From Bacteroidia bacterium (lineage in GTDB: Bacteria > Bacteroidota > Bacteroidia > Flavobacteriales_D > Cryomorphaceae), in the NCBI GenBank assembly GCA_030427905.1, contig JAUICL010000002.1:310001-374000 (forward strand): DNA of 64,000 bases, read 5' to 3'. How positions within the stretch are numbered: position 1 is the first letter of the stretch; each line of letters begins with the position of its first letter. This document shows positions 9,164 through 17,341 of this stretch, piece by piece. The position numbers and the translations under genes were made by a program. Below the pieces are notes generated by a model. The model saw nothing but the letters and a program-made list of their open reading frames with translations. It was not told the origin of the DNA and made no database searches.

Positions 9164-9826
9164 TTAGAACCGAATCCCTACTTGCAATCGTAAGTAATTA
9201 TTTGAGAGCTTCTCGAATTTACTGAGTTCACTCGAACTAAAAGCGAGTTTGTAGTCGGGTCTGATCAGGATAGATCGCTCAGCGATAGGTATCTGGAGCC
9301 CTATGCCTATGTAAGCTCCAATAAAACTCGAAACCCCAGCGCGTTCTTCAAAAGTGGAAATTTCGGGATTGGAGCCACTTCCTGAATTGGTTTCACTAAG
9401 CGTCCCAGAGCGAATAGATTGAACCATCAGGTCTGCATAGAGACCAGTTTCCACAAAGTACCGTAGCTCATTTCCGCCTGCAAACCGAATTCCAGCGGGA
9501 ACACTCAGGGCGTTCAAGTAGTAGTCTGTATTTGTCCGCGTCACAAAGTCACTTTCTTTGACTACCTCTTTGAACTGGTGGGTGTAGTTATATTCAAGAC
9601 CAAGAACAAGGCTCAGACGCTCAGACCTTTCAAACTCGTGGTAAGCTCCAATGCCGAACCCTATGTGGTCCTTGGTGTTTGCATCTCCGACGTTTGTTTG
9701 ATTTATTGATACGGCCATTTCAGAAATAAAAGGTTGAGAAGACCCTTGGGCAGACAACCAAGAATTGCTAGGAAGAACCAATACGAGTGTGGCTAATGGC
9801 TTAAGAATAGAACGAAATTTTGACAC
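9164..9826 (-). CDS. Outer-membrane beta-barrel protein (paralogue 1 of 3)
   Basis: 220 residues, GTG start forced by an in-frame TAG four codons upstream. Signal peptide ending near SAQG. The mature part alternates hydrophobic and polar residues and ends in an aromatic residue (YLRLQVGIRF), the C-terminal signature of outer-membrane barrels. It shares the blocks MAVSINQTNVGDANT and GFGIGAYHEFER with the genes at 9844-10521 and 16673-17341, so the three arose by duplication. It sits 17 bases after the 9844 gene and is probably co-transcribed. Function unknown; family resemblance is to small eight-stranded PorT/OmpA-like barrels. Confidence 0.7.
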   Translation of the reverse strand: MSKFRSILKPLATLVLVLPSNSWLSAQGSSQPFISEMAVSINQTNVGDANTKDHIGFGIGAYHEFERSERLSLVLGLEYNYTHQFKEVVKESDFVTRTNTDYYLNALSVPAGIRFAGGNELRYFVETGLYADLMVQSIRSGTLSETNSGSGSNPEISTFEERAGVSSFIGAYIGIGLQIPIAERSILIRPDYKLAFSSSELSKFEKLSNNYLRLQVGIRF

Positions 9827-9843
9827 AGATGACTATTTAAACA

Positions 9844-10521
9844 CTACAGTTGAATCCCCAAATTGATTCTAAAATAATTCAGTTTGATCGTCTCTTCCCA
9901 TCCATCGTCACCAATAGGCTTTTGATTGAAATTGTAGCGGAAATCCGAGCGGAGAATCACGTTCACGTTTTGTACGGGGATTTTTATCCCGACTCCCACC
10001 CAACTCCCTAACAAAGGTCCATTCACAGACTTGTCCTCAAATGTCTTCTCTCGTCTTTCTGGGTTACCAGGTCCACTTGTGTCTAGATAGTTGAGCGTTC
10101 CCTTCTCCGTCGAGTTGACTATTAGGCCAAGGGTCCCTCCAAGGTCTGCTAAAAACTGTGTTTCACCACCGAATTGAAATCGCACACCAATTGGCGATGT
10201 GATTTCATGAAAACGATAGTCGATATTTGATTCATCACTGAGCCGCCCGGTAATCACCCTTTGCTTGAATTGATTGGTTTGGTTGTATTCAAGGCCAACT
10301 AAGAGTCGCGCGGCACTTTGAGTTCTGCTGATGTGGTATGCGCCAAAGCCGAAACCCATTCGGTCTTCAGTGTTATCATCTGCCACGTATGTCTGGTTGA
10401 CGGAGATACTCAATTCAGAAACGAACGGCTGTGATGGTTCTTGAGCGATTGCCCAAAGCGCGCTGAACAATACCAGTACAGCTGTAACACTTGTGTTAAG
10501 TTGAGATTGGATGTTATTCAT
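9844..10521 (-). CDS. Outer-membrane beta-barrel protein (paralogue 2 of 3)
   Basis: 225 residues with a signal peptide cleaved near IAQEP. Blocks SISVNQTYVADDNTEDRM, GFGFGAYHISR and the C-terminal YFRINLGIQL are almost shared with the gene at 16673-17341, which lies on the other side of the DUF3857 operon. The terminal hydrophobic pattern and the alternation of residues indicate an outer-membrane barrel of about eight to ten strands. It starts with ATG and leads a probable two-gene unit with the 9164 gene. No enzymatic motif is visible; a structural or adhesive role is as likely as transport. Confidence 0.72.
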   Translation of the reverse strand: MNNIQSQLNTSVTAVLVLFSALWAIAQEPSQPFVSELSISVNQTYVADDNTEDRMGFGFGAYHISRTQSAARLLVGLEYNQTNQFKQRVITGRLSDESNIDYRFHEITSPIGVRFQFGGETQFLADLGGTLGLIVNSTEKGTLNYLDTSGPGNPERREKTFEDKSVNGPLLGSWVGVGIKIPVQNVNVILRSDFRYNFNQKPIGDDGWEETIKLNYFRINLGIQL

Positions 10522-10816: not shown

Positions 10817-11443
10817 TTACTTGTACAAGTAGTGTGTAAAAACAAGTCCGAACTGGTTAGCCCTAATATTAGCGTCACTGAACTGCTCCGATTTAGACCC
10901 CCATACACTCAATGGGACTAATGATGCAGATAAGCGCAAAGAATTCGAACTTTTGAAATGCACTTCAAATCCAGCTTCCAGCATGTCGCTGTTAAGGTTG
11001 GCCAAATTCAAACGGTACCCGAGTAGGACCGCAAAGTCGAAACTTCCACCATACCTACGGTAATAGGCGTATTGAGGTAGCTCAATGTACATTCCTGCAA
11101 GGCCCTTTAAATCATCTTTGGCCATCTGTAGGCCTACTCCCGCATTGAGGTTGAGTCCAATACTCCAATTGAAACTTTTGTAAACAGGTATATTCATTCC
11201 TGCTCGAGCAGTTAGTGAGCTAACATTTCCTTTGGTGTTTGCTGGAATCAAAAATGATTCTGTGTATTCACCCAAAGCGTTTGCTCTTCCACTCACAAAA
11301 ATAGAATCACTGGTCTCGACTAAACTTAGCCCACCAGTCAATCCTAAAGTAAACCCGAAAGTATCTTCTTTTTGGCCGAACAGATTGCTGGTGAATGCGA
11401 GGAGCAAAATTAGGATGAAGCTGTGTTTTGGCGAGTTAGGCAT
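10817..11443 (-). CDS. Outer-membrane beta-barrel protein at end of DUF3857 operon
   Basis: 208 residues; signal peptide (HSFILILLLAFTSNLFGQ). The mature region has barrel-like alternation (FGFTLGLTGGLSLV, WSIGLNLNAGVGLQ, FDFAVLLGYRLN) and a C-terminal strand ending FTHYLYK. It is not an obvious paralogue of the three flanking barrels. It begins 6 bases after the stop of the upstream DUF3857 gene, so it is the fourth gene of the operon 16260-10817. The position suggests that the barrel works with the periplasmic DUF3857 proteins, which is inference. No function can be named. Confidence 0.68.
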   Translation of the reverse strand: MPNSPKHSFILILLLAFTSNLFGQKEDTFGFTLGLTGGLSLVETSDSIFVSGRANALGEYTESFLIPANTKGNVSSLTARAGMNIPVYKSFNWSIGLNLNAGVGLQMAKDDLKGLAGMYIELPQYAYYRRYGGSFDFAVLLGYRLNLANLNSDMLEAGFEVHFKSSNSLRLSASLVPLSVWGSKSEQFSDANIRANQFGLVFTHYLYK

Positions 11444-11449
11444 TAGGCA

Positions 11450-13432
11450 CTACTTTTTCTTGAAATAGTAATTGGTGCTCATAAACCCATAGGCTGCATC
11501 TCGGAGATCCATTATTGATGGCCATTCATCAGGGGTAAATGAATCCTGACTGTAGGTGATTTCAAGGATAGTAGTGTATTCTTGTCCGCTTTGTTCATAG
11601 TTGCGGTATATCCTTCCTAAGTTGTTTTGGACTTCTTTCTTTAAAAGATTGTTCTCAAGCCAAACAAATTCATTCTCACTTACAAATGTGACTTTGTATC
11701 GCGAATTATAAATGTCGTGGAGATAGCCATTCTTCTTTCTAACCTTTCTTAAGTGAAATGGTGTGTAGAAAGAAGACTCAATGAAAAAATGTGGGCTGAT
11801 AGATACAATCCCGGAAGCTACCTTGGGCCTTTGGATTTGGTATGAATAGCTTATTTCGAAACTCAGATCGTCTGTTTGGTACTCGATCGCATACACAGAA
11901 TCGACTCTGTCATAGAGTACCATTTGATTAGAGATAAGGCTTTCCATACTCTCTTCAACTGTGCTTGAGTCGGCTAGTGCATTCGAGATGTAGGCTTTCA
12001 TATCAAGCCAGCTATGCCCGGTTAAAGTCACTGTTTCGTTGATGGTATAGATCAAGGAGTCACCTTGTTCACGATCGTAGGTTATGCGAATATCTTTTGA
12101 ATAAAATCCCGGGTCGAATGATGGAATTTGATCAAAGCGATAAGTACGCTTGCCACGTTCATCCTGAAATATGCTCAGGCAATTGGTCCCTTGGTATTCA
12201 CACCGAATATCGTTGAAACTTGAATAGGGCTCAAGGAGTGGGAAGTAAACCTGCTCTCCCGACTGATCCTTGAATGAGCAAAGAATGTTGCTAAACTGGT
12301 ACAGCGAAACGTATGACGTATCTAATCCACCGAAACTCTTGCTCTCCACGAAATGAAAGTTTATGGGCATATCCAAAACCTTGCAGGTCTCAGATATCAC
12401 CTGGGCATAAGCCCACGCCACATCTATATCGTCCTTTACTTGATCGTAGTTATAAAAATTCTCTTCGATTGGTCTATTGATTTTATCGAGGATCATGTTA
12501 TACCTTTCCCTGATATCTTCAATTTCGTCAAGTTGCCGCTGTGCCTGATAGATCGGTTCTTGGTCAAAAATGTAACTCCGGCTTGCAGCGCGGCGCTTTG
12601 GTTTAAAATCACGAGCAAAGTCTGACCAAGTAATTTCTTCTGCACCTTCATAATTGGATGTGGAATAGACTACACGTGGCTCATCGATGTAGTGACTTCC
12701 ATAGAGTTCATTTGAAGATGGCTCGATATTCTTGAGCTCAATCTTGAGTCCTGATTCATAACTAAAGTCTGTTTTATGATCAATACCGTTATCGAAATTA
12801 TAGGGCCAAAGTTCAATTTCAAAAAGTTCAGAACTGAGAAAAAATGACCTTTCGAGACAATAGTCAGAAGAGCTAAAGTCGATACTTCTCGTTTGGTAGA
12901 AAAAAACCGGATCAATATCGTAGACACGTTTTATTTTATAGATGTATTCTATCTCGTCTCCAATGTTTACATCTCGGAAGGCCAGCATTTTTACATCTCC
13001 TTCTTTCTTATAGTAAAAAGGCGTGTTGGCTGGTAAAGTGGAAGAAACAAAGTGATTTGTATCAGCCGGGACTGATGGCAAATTCTCCTTGTGCGTAATT
13101 GCCTTACAATCGATTAGTTCGAGTCTCTGATGAAGGTCGGTAAACGTTGGAATGTAAAGCTTGTTATACTTCTCAAGCCCGTAAAGCGAATTGATCTTCA
13201 CCTTGCGATGTATAGTCGTGATTACTTCGACAGTAGAAAGAGCCTTTCGGCCTTCTGATCTGGTGTGAACGTATTGCCGATCAAAAATGACCGTAGCATC
13301 ATCGTGTTCGCCCGAGGAAATTTTTTCGAAAGAAGAATTTGCGAAATTGTTCCAAGCATCCACATCTAATTGCGCTATTGCTTCAAACCACGACCCAAGG
13401 GCTAAAAAAACCAGTAATAAATACTTATTCAT
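11450..13432 (-). CDS. DUF3857/transglutaminase-like periplasmic protein, catalytic triad lost
   Basis: 660 residues with a signal peptide (LLLVFLALGSWFEAIAQ). Domains: DUF3857 beta domain (about 30-260), degenerate transglutaminase-like domain (about 300-410), C-terminal DUF3858-like region. Compared with the next gene upstream, the segment holding the catalytic Cys reads YDQVKDDIDVAWAYAQV (no Cys), the His position reads QFSNILCSF, and the Asp position reads VYFPLLEPY. It is therefore a probable pseudoenzyme. The start overlaps the previous stop by 8 bases (translation coupling). The role of DUF3857 proteins is unknown; they are common in Bacteroidota envelopes, often in tandem copies. Confidence 0.75.
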   Translation of the reverse strand: MNKYLLLVFLALGSWFEAIAQLDVDAWNNFANSSFEKISSGEHDDATVIFDRQYVHTRSEGRKALSTVEVITTIHRKVKINSLYGLEKYNKLYIPTFTDLHQRLELIDCKAITHKENLPSVPADTNHFVSSTLPANTPFYYKKEGDVKMLAFRDVNIGDEIEYIYKIKRVYDIDPVFFYQTRSIDFSSSDYCLERSFFLSSELFEIELWPYNFDNGIDHKTDFSYESGLKIELKNIEPSSNELYGSHYIDEPRVVYSTSNYEGAEEITWSDFARDFKPKRRAASRSYIFDQEPIYQAQRQLDEIEDIRERYNMILDKINRPIEENFYNYDQVKDDIDVAWAYAQVISETCKVLDMPINFHFVESKSFGGLDTSYVSLYQFSNILCSFKDQSGEQVYFPLLEPYSSFNDIRCEYQGTNCLSIFQDERGKRTYRFDQIPSFDPGFYSKDIRITYDREQGDSLIYTINETVTLTGHSWLDMKAYISNALADSSTVEESMESLISNQMVLYDRVDSVYAIEYQTDDLSFEISYSYQIQRPKVASGIVSISPHFFIESSFYTPFHLRKVRKKNGYLHDIYNSRYKVTFVSENEFVWLENNLLKKEVQNNLGRIYRNYEQSGQEYTTILEITYSQDSFTPDEWPSIMDLRDAAYGFMSTNYYFKKK

Positions 13433-15314
13433 AAGTCAATGGATAAAAATTGAACGCCTTTACCTGAGCCATAAAATCAAACCAAGGTTCGGTTTCGTAA
13501 ATAGGTGAATGGAGTACGTTCAGGCGTAGCTGCTGACGCACAACTTGTTTGTTGCCTACTACTTCAGTGTAAAATTTTGCCGAGTAGAAATCGTTACCTA
13601 TTGTCGCCATAGGGTAATTAGTCGACGCTAATTTTCCACCGTTGTCCAACTCCAATGTAACATCAATCAATTGTGGGAAATCAATGTAAATAGGTGGGTT
13701 TTTTTCATTGGTCATTTCCAAAGCCAATATGTCGAGAAAAGGAAAAACTGCTGTGTGATCTGAGACAGCAATATTGTAGAACCTACCTTTTATATTAAAT
13801 TTTACACCTTCTGGAGTGAGCGTTGGTTCTGAAACTTCATCTATTTTCACTCCGTCTAAATAGGGTTGAATGAAGTAAAACGGGACGTTTGGCTTTTTTT
13901 CAAGTGATGAATACGTCGAGTAGCTATTGAAGTCACGATAAAAATGACCTGTTAACTCTACATCTATGTCGATCATTGGATCATCAGAAGACAAATCTAT
14001 TTTTCCATTCACCCGTAGCACATTGCTTTCTGGTGGAGATAATTGGACCATGTCCAGTTCGTAAGTATCCCCATTGGCAATCAATACTTCCTTTCCTTCG
14101 ATATGGGCAGGCGCGTGATCCCAACTAGCTGATTTACTGGTACCATCTAGGTAATAGGTTTGGCCATTGAACTTTAGTCCACAGATCATGTGGTTGTCTA
14201 CGATCAATGACGGCATTTTATAGCTGTAGTTATTGCCTCGTGTTCCGACCCAAACATGCCGGGCATCAAAGCCTTCAGCTCTCAATAAGTTGACAAGTAA
14301 GTTTGCCATTCCTTTACAGTCGCCATACTTCAGGTTGACTACATCTTGGGCTTCTGACGGTTTGAATCCTGCGATCCCATCTTCAAATGCTACGTACTGA
14401 ATATTTGCCTGAACCCAGGTAAATATTGCTTGAATCTTTTCTTCATCAGTAGCAAGATTTGAAGTGATTTCTGCAGAGAGTTGCTTCAAAAACACGTCGT
14501 CTGGATGCAATTCTTTGATAAGGGTATTGTACCACTCATACATGGCTGTAGTTGAGTTTAGTACAGGCTGGGTTCTGTTGGGGGTTCTATACTCTTCTAC
14601 AGAGATAACTACGTGCGGTAAGTAGTAGTTTCCCTTAACTGAGTATGATGTAGGTTTGTATTGTCTTAATTTTTTGCCGCTATAGGTTATCGTTGATTCT
14701 GTTTCTTCCTTTTCTATCTCCATCAAGTTGTATTGATAGATGTGGAAATCAACATCCTTATTCTTTTTGAATGAAATTTCGACATCTTCCATCCCCACAT
14801 TATTCTGCTGAAAGAAAAAGCTAGTCAAAAACTTTAAGTCTGTATAGATCACGTCGTAAGAATAGCTTACTACATAGTCTTTCGGAAGGTATACAGAGCA
14901 ATTGAATTGCTTTACTTTAAGGTCGTTGTAGAATATGTTTTCGATAAAGTAGTCCTTTTCATCGGCGTATTTCACTTTAACATTTTCTATTAGGGTTTTC
15001 TCTCCAGCAGAATCCAACTTAAAGTATCTGGCACGCTGTAACTGAACATCCTGCGAGGGGTTAAAAGCAACTTGCGTTAAGCCTTTTGATTGATTACTGT
15101 TAAGATAGAGCTTTTCGTATCTGTGGCTCACCTTGGCATGGTAGGCGTCGTGCGCTTCACTGTAAAAGAATGATACTTTGACTCTCTTTTTAAGCGTTAC
15201 TTCACCTTGTTTATAGACTTTTCTATAATGGTCTATATCTATTTGCCCTATCAAAAAAGTATTTGATAGGACAAATAGAATTAGGAGTACTATTTGGAAG
15301 CGATTAGTTTGCAA
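13425..15314 (-). CDS. DUF3857/transglutaminase domain periplasmic protein, intact triad
   Basis: 629 residues; TTG start at 15314 overlapping the preceding gene by 11 bases. It has a signal peptide (VLLILFVLSNTFLIGQ), a DUF3857 domain (about 35-250), a transglutaminase-like domain (about 280-400) and a DUF3858-type end. The papain-like triad is present: C333 in KYGDCKGMANLL, H375 in VDNHMI and D390 in YYLDGTS. By fold it could be a periplasmic amidase, protease or crosslinking enzyme; no substrate is established. It is the second gene of a four-gene operon and is followed by a homologue lacking the triad, suggesting an enzyme/pseudoenzyme pair. Confidence 0.8.
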   Translation of the reverse strand: MQTNRFQIVLLILFVLSNTFLIGQIDIDHYRKVYKQGEVTLKKRVKVSFFYSEAHDAYHAKVSHRYEKLYLNSNQSKGLTQVAFNPSQDVQLQRARYFKLDSAGEKTLIENVKVKYADEKDYFIENIFYNDLKVKQFNCSVYLPKDYVVSYSYDVIYTDLKFLTSFFFQQNNVGMEDVEISFKKNKDVDFHIYQYNLMEIEKEETESTITYSGKKLRQYKPTSYSVKGNYYLPHVVISVEEYRTPNRTQPVLNSTTAMYEWYNTLIKELHPDDVFLKQLSAEITSNLATDEEKIQAIFTWVQANIQYVAFEDGIAGFKPSEAQDVVNLKYGDCKGMANLLVNLLRAEGFDARHVWVGTRGNNYSYKMPSLIVDNHMICGLKFNGQTYYLDGTSKSASWDHAPAHIEGKEVLIANGDTYELDMVQLSPPESNVLRVNGKIDLSSDDPMIDIDVELTGHFYRDFNSYSTYSSLEKKPNVPFYFIQPYLDGVKIDEVSEPTLTPEGVKFNIKGRFYNIAVSDHTAVFPFLDILALEMTNEKNPPIYIDFPQLIDVTLELDNGGKLASTNYPMATIGNDFYSAKFYTEVVGNKQVVRQQLRLNVLHSPIYETEPWFDFMAQVKAFNFYPLTYE

Positions 15315-16260
15315 GTTCTTGGCGGAATTTGTCTGCTTTAGAGAGAATTTTTCGCTGGGTTTGCTCTACAGCAGAAGATTTAAGTCTTCCCTTTCCCATA
15401 AACACCAAAAGTAGATCATCAGACTCGGTGGATATTAATAGGTTGTAGTGGTAGGTAATTAGCGGGCTTTGGGTGTATACCGGAATTGATCTCCAGAAGT
15501 AGTGATCAGGGTCGCCTTCCACTCTTTTGGCTTCAACTTCTTCATGATCTGTAAACTTTACATTGCTAATTTTCCAGTATTGGATCGCGTCTTGCAAATC
15601 TTCGTTTCTACGATCTCTTTTCTTTTCGTTTTGGTGCTCGCTAGCAGGAACTAAAAAAGTTTTATCAGCGATGTTGTCCGCCCACTCAACAAACTTCATT
15701 TTATAATCTTTTCTGGCAGCAGAACGACTCGTTTTTTGTCCATCAATAGCTGTTTCGGCTGCATCGTTTAACGACTCATTCAGCATGTTGATCATCAATC
15801 GAAGGTCTCCTTTATCAAAAAGGTTGAATCCTGTAATTGGAGCAATTGCTATCGTTCTCTTCTTAGGGCCAGTCACAAACATTGAAACTGTACGGTTTCC
15901 ATAGTCATCTTGCCTATAGGTCAATATGATTGCTTCTTCGTTCTTGCTTTTGATGAGTTGTTTGAGATCGTAACCTTTAATCTCGTAGTCGGTGGCATCA
16001 TAGGATGATTCTGCCATGGCTTCTTTCCAGAGCGTGTTGTAATACTCCACCTTTTGTTCATGGTCAGAAATCTCATCAAATTTTCCCTTTTTGCTCATTT
16101 TATCAATGTATCGTTCACTCGCTTCGAACGTTGGAATATAGAGCACTTTATTCTTGAGTATAGCAGGGTCAAAAGGCTTCACTCCAGCGAGCTGAGCACT
16201 TGCAAGGTTTGTGATTAAAAATGCTCCACAAATGATGAGTAGGTACGACAACTTTTTCAT
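15304..16260 (-). CDS. Exported protein of unknown function, first gene of DUF3857 operon
   Basis: 318 residues with a signal peptide (MKKLSYLLIICGAFLITNLASA). I do not recognise a named domain. Visible features: YIPTFEASERYIDKM near the N-terminus, a lysine-rich middle (res. 85-135) containing KGYDLKQLIKSK, a helical stretch DLRLMINMLNESLNDA, and a basic charged section (SEHQNEKKRDRRNE). No catalytic pattern and no terminal barrel strand, so a soluble periplasmic protein is likely. It is tightly linked to two DUF3857 proteins and a barrel. A candidate promoter lies about 195 bases upstream. Confidence 0.65.
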   Translation of the reverse strand: MKKLSYLLIICGAFLITNLASAQLAGVKPFDPAILKNKVLYIPTFEASERYIDKMSKKGKFDEISDHEQKVEYYNTLWKEAMAESSYDATDYEIKGYDLKQLIKSKNEEAIILTYRQDDYGNRTVSMFVTGPKKRTIAIAPITGFNLFDKGDLRLMINMLNESLNDAAETAIDGQKTSRSAARKDYKMKFVEWADNIADKTFLVPASEHQNEKKRDRRNEDLQDAIQYWKISNVKFTDHEEVEAKRVEGDPDHYFWRSIPVYTQSPLITYHYNLLISTESDDLLLVFMGKGRLKSSAVEQTQRKILSKADKFRQELAN

Positions 16261-16672
16261 GGTCTTCTAGTTTTTCATTTCAATTAATTGGTAAAAGAAT
16301 ATCCGGATCAGTTCAGAATGATTGACCTGAGCACACAGAACTATTGAACGTGTAGAGTAGTATTCCGAACCTGAAATCGGATGACCTATTCGTTTGTAAT
16401 AAGAGTCGATCTCACTAGCTCACTCACTTTCGTAATTCCTAAATCATAGCAGGGCGAAAATAGCTAAATAGTCAAGAGCAGCAAGGGTTTTAACTGGTTT
16501 TTCGAATCGGGGAGACCTACCAAACTGGCAATTAATACTTTAATTTTTGATTGTTACCCGTTTGATCGGCACGAAAAACTCACTACTATTTAGGCGTATT
16601 GATATCAGTCCATTCCGAGAAAGTGGTCCGCATAGAATGATAGTACTTTTTATTGTTGATACGACTACTTTT
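16261..16672 (-). other. 412-base gene-free region upstream of DUF3857 operon
   Basis: No ORF of credible size on either strand. It separates the start of the operon (16260) from the end of the third barrel paralogue (16673). It contains the candidate promoter at 16455-16484 and would give the operon a long 5' leader of about 190 bases. The sequence is AT-rich with no strong hairpin. Confidence 0.5.
16455..16484 (-). promoter_or_regulatory. Candidate Bacteroidota sigma promoter for DUF3857 operon
   Basis: On the minus strand: TTG (16484-16482), 19-base spacer, then TATTTTCG (16462-16455), one mismatch to TAnnTTTG. The TTG-N19 spacing is the textbook one for the phylum. The implied start of transcription is about 190 bases before the ATG at 16260. 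Confidence 0.35.
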
Positions 16673-17341
16673 CTAAATCTGAATCCCTAGATTGATTCTA
16701 AAATACTGGAATCTAATATTCTCTGGGTATAGCCCATCACTTATGGACTTTTTGGTCACATTGCTTCGGATATCTGTTCGGAGAATAAAATCCATTTTTT
16801 CACCTGGGATTTTTACACCAATTCCACCCCAAAAACCGAATAAAAGGCCACCTACAGAATTGTCATCAAATTCATTCACATGATGTTCGAATGTGTTGTC
16901 TTCAGAAAGAGCGTTGGAGTGCGAAGTTCCTTGCTTCCTAGAAGACAAGATGATGTCGAATGAGCCACCGAAGTCGCATAAAAACTGTGCTTTGTTCCCA
17001 ACTTGAATTCTCATACCCGCTGGGATCGTAACGCCATAGAAGGTGAAATCGATGTCTTCATCATGGCTCCATCTACCGTCGTATAGCCATTTCTTGTTTT
17101 GTCGGGTCTGGTTGAATTCAATTCCCGCCAGCAGTCTTGCTACACCTTCCTTTCTACTAATGTGATAGGCCCCAATCCCAAAACCCATTCGGTTTTCGGT
17201 ATTATCGTCTGCCACAAAAGTTGAGTTCACGTTTACAAAAAACTCATTGAAAGGGAACTTTTCTTCCTTTTGCCCAAAACAAATAGTCCCAAAGAGAAGT
17301 GATAGCAGGAGGGTAGAATATTTAGCAATTGTCACCGTCAT
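16673..17341 (-). CDS. Outer-membrane beta-barrel protein (paralogue 3 of 3)
   Basis: 222 residues; signal peptide ending near FGQKE. Closely related to the gene at 9844-10521: both carry VADDNTE(N/D)RMGFG, GAYHISR, a central FLCDFGGS/FLADLGGT strand and the terminal YFRINLGIQ. The two copies flank the four-gene DUF3857 operon on either side. The alternation of residues and the aromatic-rich last strand point to an outer-membrane barrel. The gene stands alone by spacing (412 bases to the next gene downstream). Function unknown. Confidence 0.72.
   Translation of the reverse strand: MTVTIAKYSTLLLSLLFGTICFGQKEEKFPFNEFFVNVNSTFVADDNTENRMGFGIGAYHISRKEGVARLLAGIEFNQTRQNKKWLYDGRWSHDEDIDFTFYGVTIPAGMRIQVGNKAQFLCDFGGSFDIILSSRKQGTSHSNALSEDNTFEHHVNEFDDNSVGGLLFGFWGGIGVKIPGEKMDFILRTDIRSNVTKKSISDGLYPENIRFQYFRINLGIQI

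Follow-up and report, generated by a model that had tools for sequence, protein, structure and literature searches.

Why should a bacterium encode a transglutaminase-like protein directly beside a paralogue of it that has lost all three catalytic residues, and do the genes on either side of these two belong to the same system? Both questions are raised by an operon on the minus strand of the window, the whole 64,000-nucleotide stretch of Bacteroidota DNA analyzed here. The operon consists of four genes in the order U-E-P-B:

15304..16260 (also 16260-15304), minus strand: U, 318 aa, ATG start, first gene of the operon
13425..15314, minus strand: E, 629 aa, TTG start, transglutaminase-like, export predicted
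11450..13432, minus strand: P, 660 aa, ATG start, Cys-less paralogue of E, export predicted
10817..11443, minus strand: B, 208 aa, ATG start, export predicted, possible outer-membrane beta-barrel

The original prediction of four near-touching genes with spacings of -11, -8, and +6 bases is confirmed by these coordinates: U and E overlap by 11 bases, E and P by 8 bases, and a gap of 6 bases lies between P and B. The TTG start of E sits within the 3′ end of U. All four proteins carry N termini that resemble signal peptides when judged by eye, and export is accordingly a prediction from sequence for U, E, P, and B alike. Consensus scans for an operon-specific promoter or terminator gave no excess over shuffled sequences.

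The block differs from its surroundings in base composition. At 0.39-0.40, the GC content of U, E, and P is below every value in a comparison set of 39 other window genes (mean 0.464, sd 0.025), and an AT-rich stretch at approximately 11000-17000, covering these three genes, has a GC content of about 0.39-0.41 versus 0.453 for the window. Neither U, P, nor B had a match in the seven other genomes of the family, and matches to E were weak there. In one of these seven (L160), the flanks are conserved on both sides while two small unrelated genes occupy the place of the block, which is probably a lineage-specific insertion adjoining a cinA-like gene. Several other genes of the window deserve mention in passing. 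A Transglut_core2 gene (PF13369; 5825-6754, minus strand) lies about 4 kb away; it belongs to a different family, and its proximity is probably a coincidence. A PIN-domain gene (PF13470; 23600-24025, minus strand) possibly encodes the toxin of a toxin-antitoxin pair, and a close relative of it is found near the cinA-like gene at another locus (L163).

E matches the Transglut_core profile (PF01841) at 50.2 bits against a cut-off of 23. The predicted residues C333, H375, and D390 are borne out by this match and by the triad motifs KYGDCKGM, VDNHMIC, and YYLDGTS in which they respectively reside, and all three are invariant across nine aligned relatives of E. Their codons are located as follows:

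14316..14318, minus strand: catalytic C333 codon of E, TGT in GGCGACTGTAAAGGA
14190..14192, minus strand: catalytic H375 codon of E, by residue assignment in E
14145..14147, minus strand: catalytic D390 codon of E, by residue assignment in E

The designation of E and P as a DUF3857 pair applies to the two proteins in different ways. P passes the Pfam cut-off for DUF3857 (PF12969; 28.6 bits versus 24.6), whereas E falls below this threshold in the profile search and was assigned to the wider DUF3857 family through its relatives by iterative HMM. P also matches the family HMM with an E-value of 3e-32. In the family alignment, its catalytic columns hold a gap instead of Cys, Asn instead of His, and Pro instead of Asp, and the profile search detected no Transglut_core match in P; the triad loss originally ascribed to this protein is thereby upheld.

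To what extent this arrangement is a peculiarity of the window can be judged from two sets of loci, those surrounding relatives of E and those surrounding DUF3857 matches in a phylum-wide genome sample, at which genes were called and family members were identified by iterated HMM. Of 395 Bacteroidota genomes in this sample, 150 had a DUF3857 match. In 67 of 67 multi-member clusters, from a set of loci whose early batches were picked partly for visible tandems, exactly one member carries the Cys-His-Asp/Glu triad and is accompanied by one or two Cys-less members. For the final 20 loci, list order decided the choice regardless of pairing, and all 21 clusters from them obey the same rule (21/21), as do three later clusters assessed by motif. 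Neither an active-active nor an all-dead cluster occurs among the 67 tandem clusters surveyed, and a motif check of the surveyed clusters revealed no GDCK-like sequence in any dead member. The window itself fits: E and P are encoded by adjacent genes on the same strand, and exactly one of them has the triad. Pairing is kept even though lineages differ in whether the active or the dead gene comes first: the orders are active-dead in 29 clusters, dead-active in 29, active-dead-dead in four, dead-dead-active in four, and dead-active-dead in one. The presence of exactly one live member in each cluster favors a working partnership. On the other hand, active members also occur alone (six in the survey and two more seen later), and the fold therefore need not always have a partner.

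The survey also yielded observations on variation within the family. Each three-member cluster (L097, L119, L128, L133, L139, L140, L141, L143, and L084) combines one active with two Cys-less members, which suggests repeated duplication of the dead partner alone. In active members from the dead-first layout (survey loci such as L086-L108), the third triad residue is Glu (WLECTS), while the window type has Asp (YFLDATS). Two additional active/dead pairs reside in the genome of the window itself, one on contig G000:C5 at ~410.6-414.7 kb (L033:7578-11715) and one on contig G000:C1 at ~719-723 kb (L034:4403-8211); the dead member of the latter has Ser and Tyr at the Cys and His positions.

Selection and tree analyses point in the same direction. 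Among close pairs that could be measured, dN/dS amounts to 0.10 and 0.06 in dead members versus 0.11 and 0.05 in their active neighbors; dead members are thus not decaying. With 67 of 67 clusters following the rule and with dead members under purifying selection, the predicted coupling of an enzyme to a pseudoenzyme is not only correct for the window, it is far more general than had been proposed. Distances among active members correlate strongly with those among their dead partners: Mantel r is 0.92 in the 18 window-type pairs and 0.90 in a set of 48 other pairs, with 0 of 2000 permutations as high. In the tree, the window E groups with the E of a distant, uncultured Flavobacteriales MAG (L051), the window P groups with the P of the same MAG, and the window-type clade falls into two halves that are mirror images. 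Mirrored trees say that pair members travel together, although vertical inheritance of neighboring genes would by itself account for much of this. In the window type, divergence is faster for dead members, whose mean tree distance is 3.56, than for the active partners, with 2.77. A single ancient loss of the Cys is not rejected (AU p 0.43); the tree takes three changes, and long branches meet in it. Since one loss is compatible with the data, the 67 clusters do not represent 67 independent events.

Taken together, E is probably a periplasmic thiol enzyme of the transglutaminase fold, with P as its dead paralogue and fixed non-catalytic partner. The alternative that competes best with this reading, and that we nevertheless regard as unlikely, is that P and the other dead members act apart from the enzyme, for instance as periplasmic binders of peptides or glycans, and that adjacency reflects a common pathway or tandem duplication. 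Stand-alone inactive transglutaminase domains with binding or scaffold roles are indeed described in the available parts of two publications (PMC3482391, PMC12239564), and the trees permit one old tandem duplication. Furthermore, a fusion of E and P was sought among relatives of ~1250 aa, each of which turned out to contain one family domain; this search thus gave no Rosetta-stone evidence for contact. A live member is, however, present in every tandem cluster surveyed, and the pairing outlasts changes in gene order. Loose neighbors should also part more often than is observed, since just one solitary Cys-less member without a partner nearby (L122) was found. As for the ~1250-aa proteins themselves (L167:1868-5578, L168:3552-7388, and L169:3757-7530), the family domain is located at the C-terminal end and preceded by a 650-residue N-terminal part of unassigned nature; a regular-expression search found no GDCK-like motif in these three proteins.

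The only structure solved for the family bears on the identity of the partner. PDB entry 3KD4 (BDI_1141 from Parabacteroides distasonis), deposited as a 'putative protease', resembles E and P in its layout of DUF3857, transglutaminase-like core, and DUF3858, and is the sole credible solved-structure match of the E-family profile (0.00012). At the catalytic motif it reads YGTPLEIA where active members carry YGDCKxxA. Lacking the Cys, 3KD4 models P and not the enzyme. Its close homologue L085_5 is encoded directly downstream of an active relative (L085_3). 3KD4 thus appears to be of the dead-partner type, and its 'protease' label is unsupported by its own active site. Prediction of the structure of P alone was less informative: the AlphaFold model, computed from a two-sequence alignment, is poor (mean pLDDT 40), and its best Foldseek match is again 3kd4 (E-value 3.4e-8 over 535 columns). 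The models of P and U, both built from two-sequence alignments, are too poor for placing residues.

The genes flanking the pair show a much narrower distribution. U has no Pfam, NCBIfam, or credible solved-structure match, in agreement with its original description as an exported protein of no known family, for which export is read by eye from the N terminus; its AlphaFold model is likewise poor (pLDDT 45). A PADLOC cyclase match was set aside as weak (E-value 0.0025) and covering 58 residues. Matches to U occur in three of 299 genomes of the order, including its own genome, and one of the three is weak. A homologue with 53% identity is located upstream of an E-P pair in L051, a locus identical to L054. 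There, the U-E-P order and the 11-base U/E overlap are the same as in the window, with identities of 53% for U, 34% for E, and about 30% for P; the contig ends inside P, so that the downstream position of B lies off the contig. In the collection scanned, U-E-P was found nowhere beyond the window genome and L051, and U was not seen beside other E-P pairs surveyed. B has no Pfam or NCBIfam match, and this includes profiles of barrel families; the predicted beta-barrel is plausible for B and finds no counterpart among known families. One relative of B was detected in 298 genomes of the order, and neither U, E, nor P is encoded beside it. In a third genome carrying a P fragment (L052), the next gene encodes an unrelated 885-aa protein (valyl-tRNA synthetase-like by eye) rather than B. 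Paralogues resembling outer-membrane barrels flank the operon at 9164-9826, 9844-10521, and 16673-17341, all on the minus strand, with 29-46% identity in the searches made. B was considered as a further paralogue of these barrels and rejected, given that no relation was detectable.

These distributions bear on the suggestion of a dedicated envelope system built from the four genes: E together with P would cross-link or process U and present it through B. In its favor, all four genes are tightly spaced, U-E-P recurs with an identical overlap in L051, and U, with its export-type N terminus and many lysines, might serve as a substrate. Against it, the one relative of B that was found is away from U, E, and P, the gene after the P relative in L052 differs from B, and U was not found beside other E-P pairs surveyed. 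The idea of a dedicated system is weaker than that of the pair: U-E-P occurs in two genomes, B is unlinked in the two testable cases, and we consider the four-gene version improbable. U and B rather look like lineage-specific additions to the pair. Finally, that P is no pseudoenzyme at all and is catalytically competent via residues elsewhere is very improbable: some presumed pseudoenzymes are active through migrated catalytic residues (PMC10211241, in its available part), the model of P is too poor for judging, and C192 is the sole Cys of P conserved in the one long relative of P, as far as the latter's available sequence extends, where H75 is conserved as well, but both lie in the N-terminal half of P, outside the transglutaminase core region, and the residues that stand in for the Cys in dead partners across the phylum (Ser, Val, Ala, Gly, Asn, and Glu, among others) include no shared new nucleophile.

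For the favored pairing of an enzyme with a fixed non-catalytic partner, the following mechanism can be proposed. First, Cys333 of E would attack an acyl group, either a peptide bond or a glutamine side chain, to yield a thioester. This thioester would then be resolved by water or by an amine. From general knowledge of bacterial members of the family, we lean toward hydrolysis over cross-linking, and the fold of E would equally allow a protease or an amidase. P would most likely bind E as a heteromer and either activate it or present the substrate. Physical contact, activation, the reaction, and the substrate are all what we infer for E and P from their genes. Each pair in Bacteroidota would represent a single functional module in which a live member is joined by one dead member or by two, and here the module would have gained U, and perhaps B as well. 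Confined to this branch and coupled to E in translation, U is the first candidate for a substrate or adaptor. It is quite possible, albeit tentative at this stage, that the pairs constitute a widespread two-subunit envelope enzyme of Bacteroidota whose transglutaminase-like subunit works only together with a dead paralogue, that this partnership is old and has been kept through deep divergence and changes in gene order, and that the solved 'protease' is the dead subunit. The rule of one live member per cluster translates into a testable hypothesis, namely a heteromer with the dead subunit as activator. It also implies that assays of single proteins, or the annotation of a dead member as a 'protease', may mislead.

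With Transglut_core enzymes (PF01841) such as TgpA, factor XIII, and tissue transglutaminase, E has in common a papain-like core with a Cys-His-Asp/Glu triad. In factor XIII-type enzymes, beta-domains flank this core on both sides. E differs from Transglut_core enzymes in being of the DUF3857 type, in its predicted export, and in being encoded beside a dead paralogue; at the position of its triad Asp, Glu is found in the active members of many other pairs. In the searchable literature, which omits most subscription journals, no description of live/dead DUF3857 pairing was found; DUF3857 is mentioned once, incidentally, with no functional paper found, and DUF3858 is absent. Catalytically inactive transglutaminase domains have precedents. 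One has been proposed as a peptide-binding anchor in polymorphic toxin leaders (PMC3482391), RloB of Pseudomonas contains one of the binding or scaffold type (PMC12239564), and others are found in EPB42, XPC/Rad4, and C2D2A (PMC10318531). Like P, these proteins have kept the fold for another role after losing catalytic residues; in contrast to P, none is accompanied by a same-family tandem active partner in the Bacteroidota envelope in the available parts of these accounts. With respect to the partnership, the available text on AdoMetDC/prozyme reports that a dead paralogue activates the live one (PMC5201418), and that on the metformin hydrolase MetCaCb describes a heterohexamer of two related subunits (PMC11271267). 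Both are comparable in the way they work only, their folds being unrelated to those of E and P, and their complexes have been demonstrated according to these texts whereas that of E and P is deduced from genes. Each of the two ingredients, a transglutaminase fold without activity and an enzyme paired with a dead paralogue, is already known; what appears new, as far as the searchable literature goes, is that the two are combined as a constant pair in the Bacteroidota envelope.
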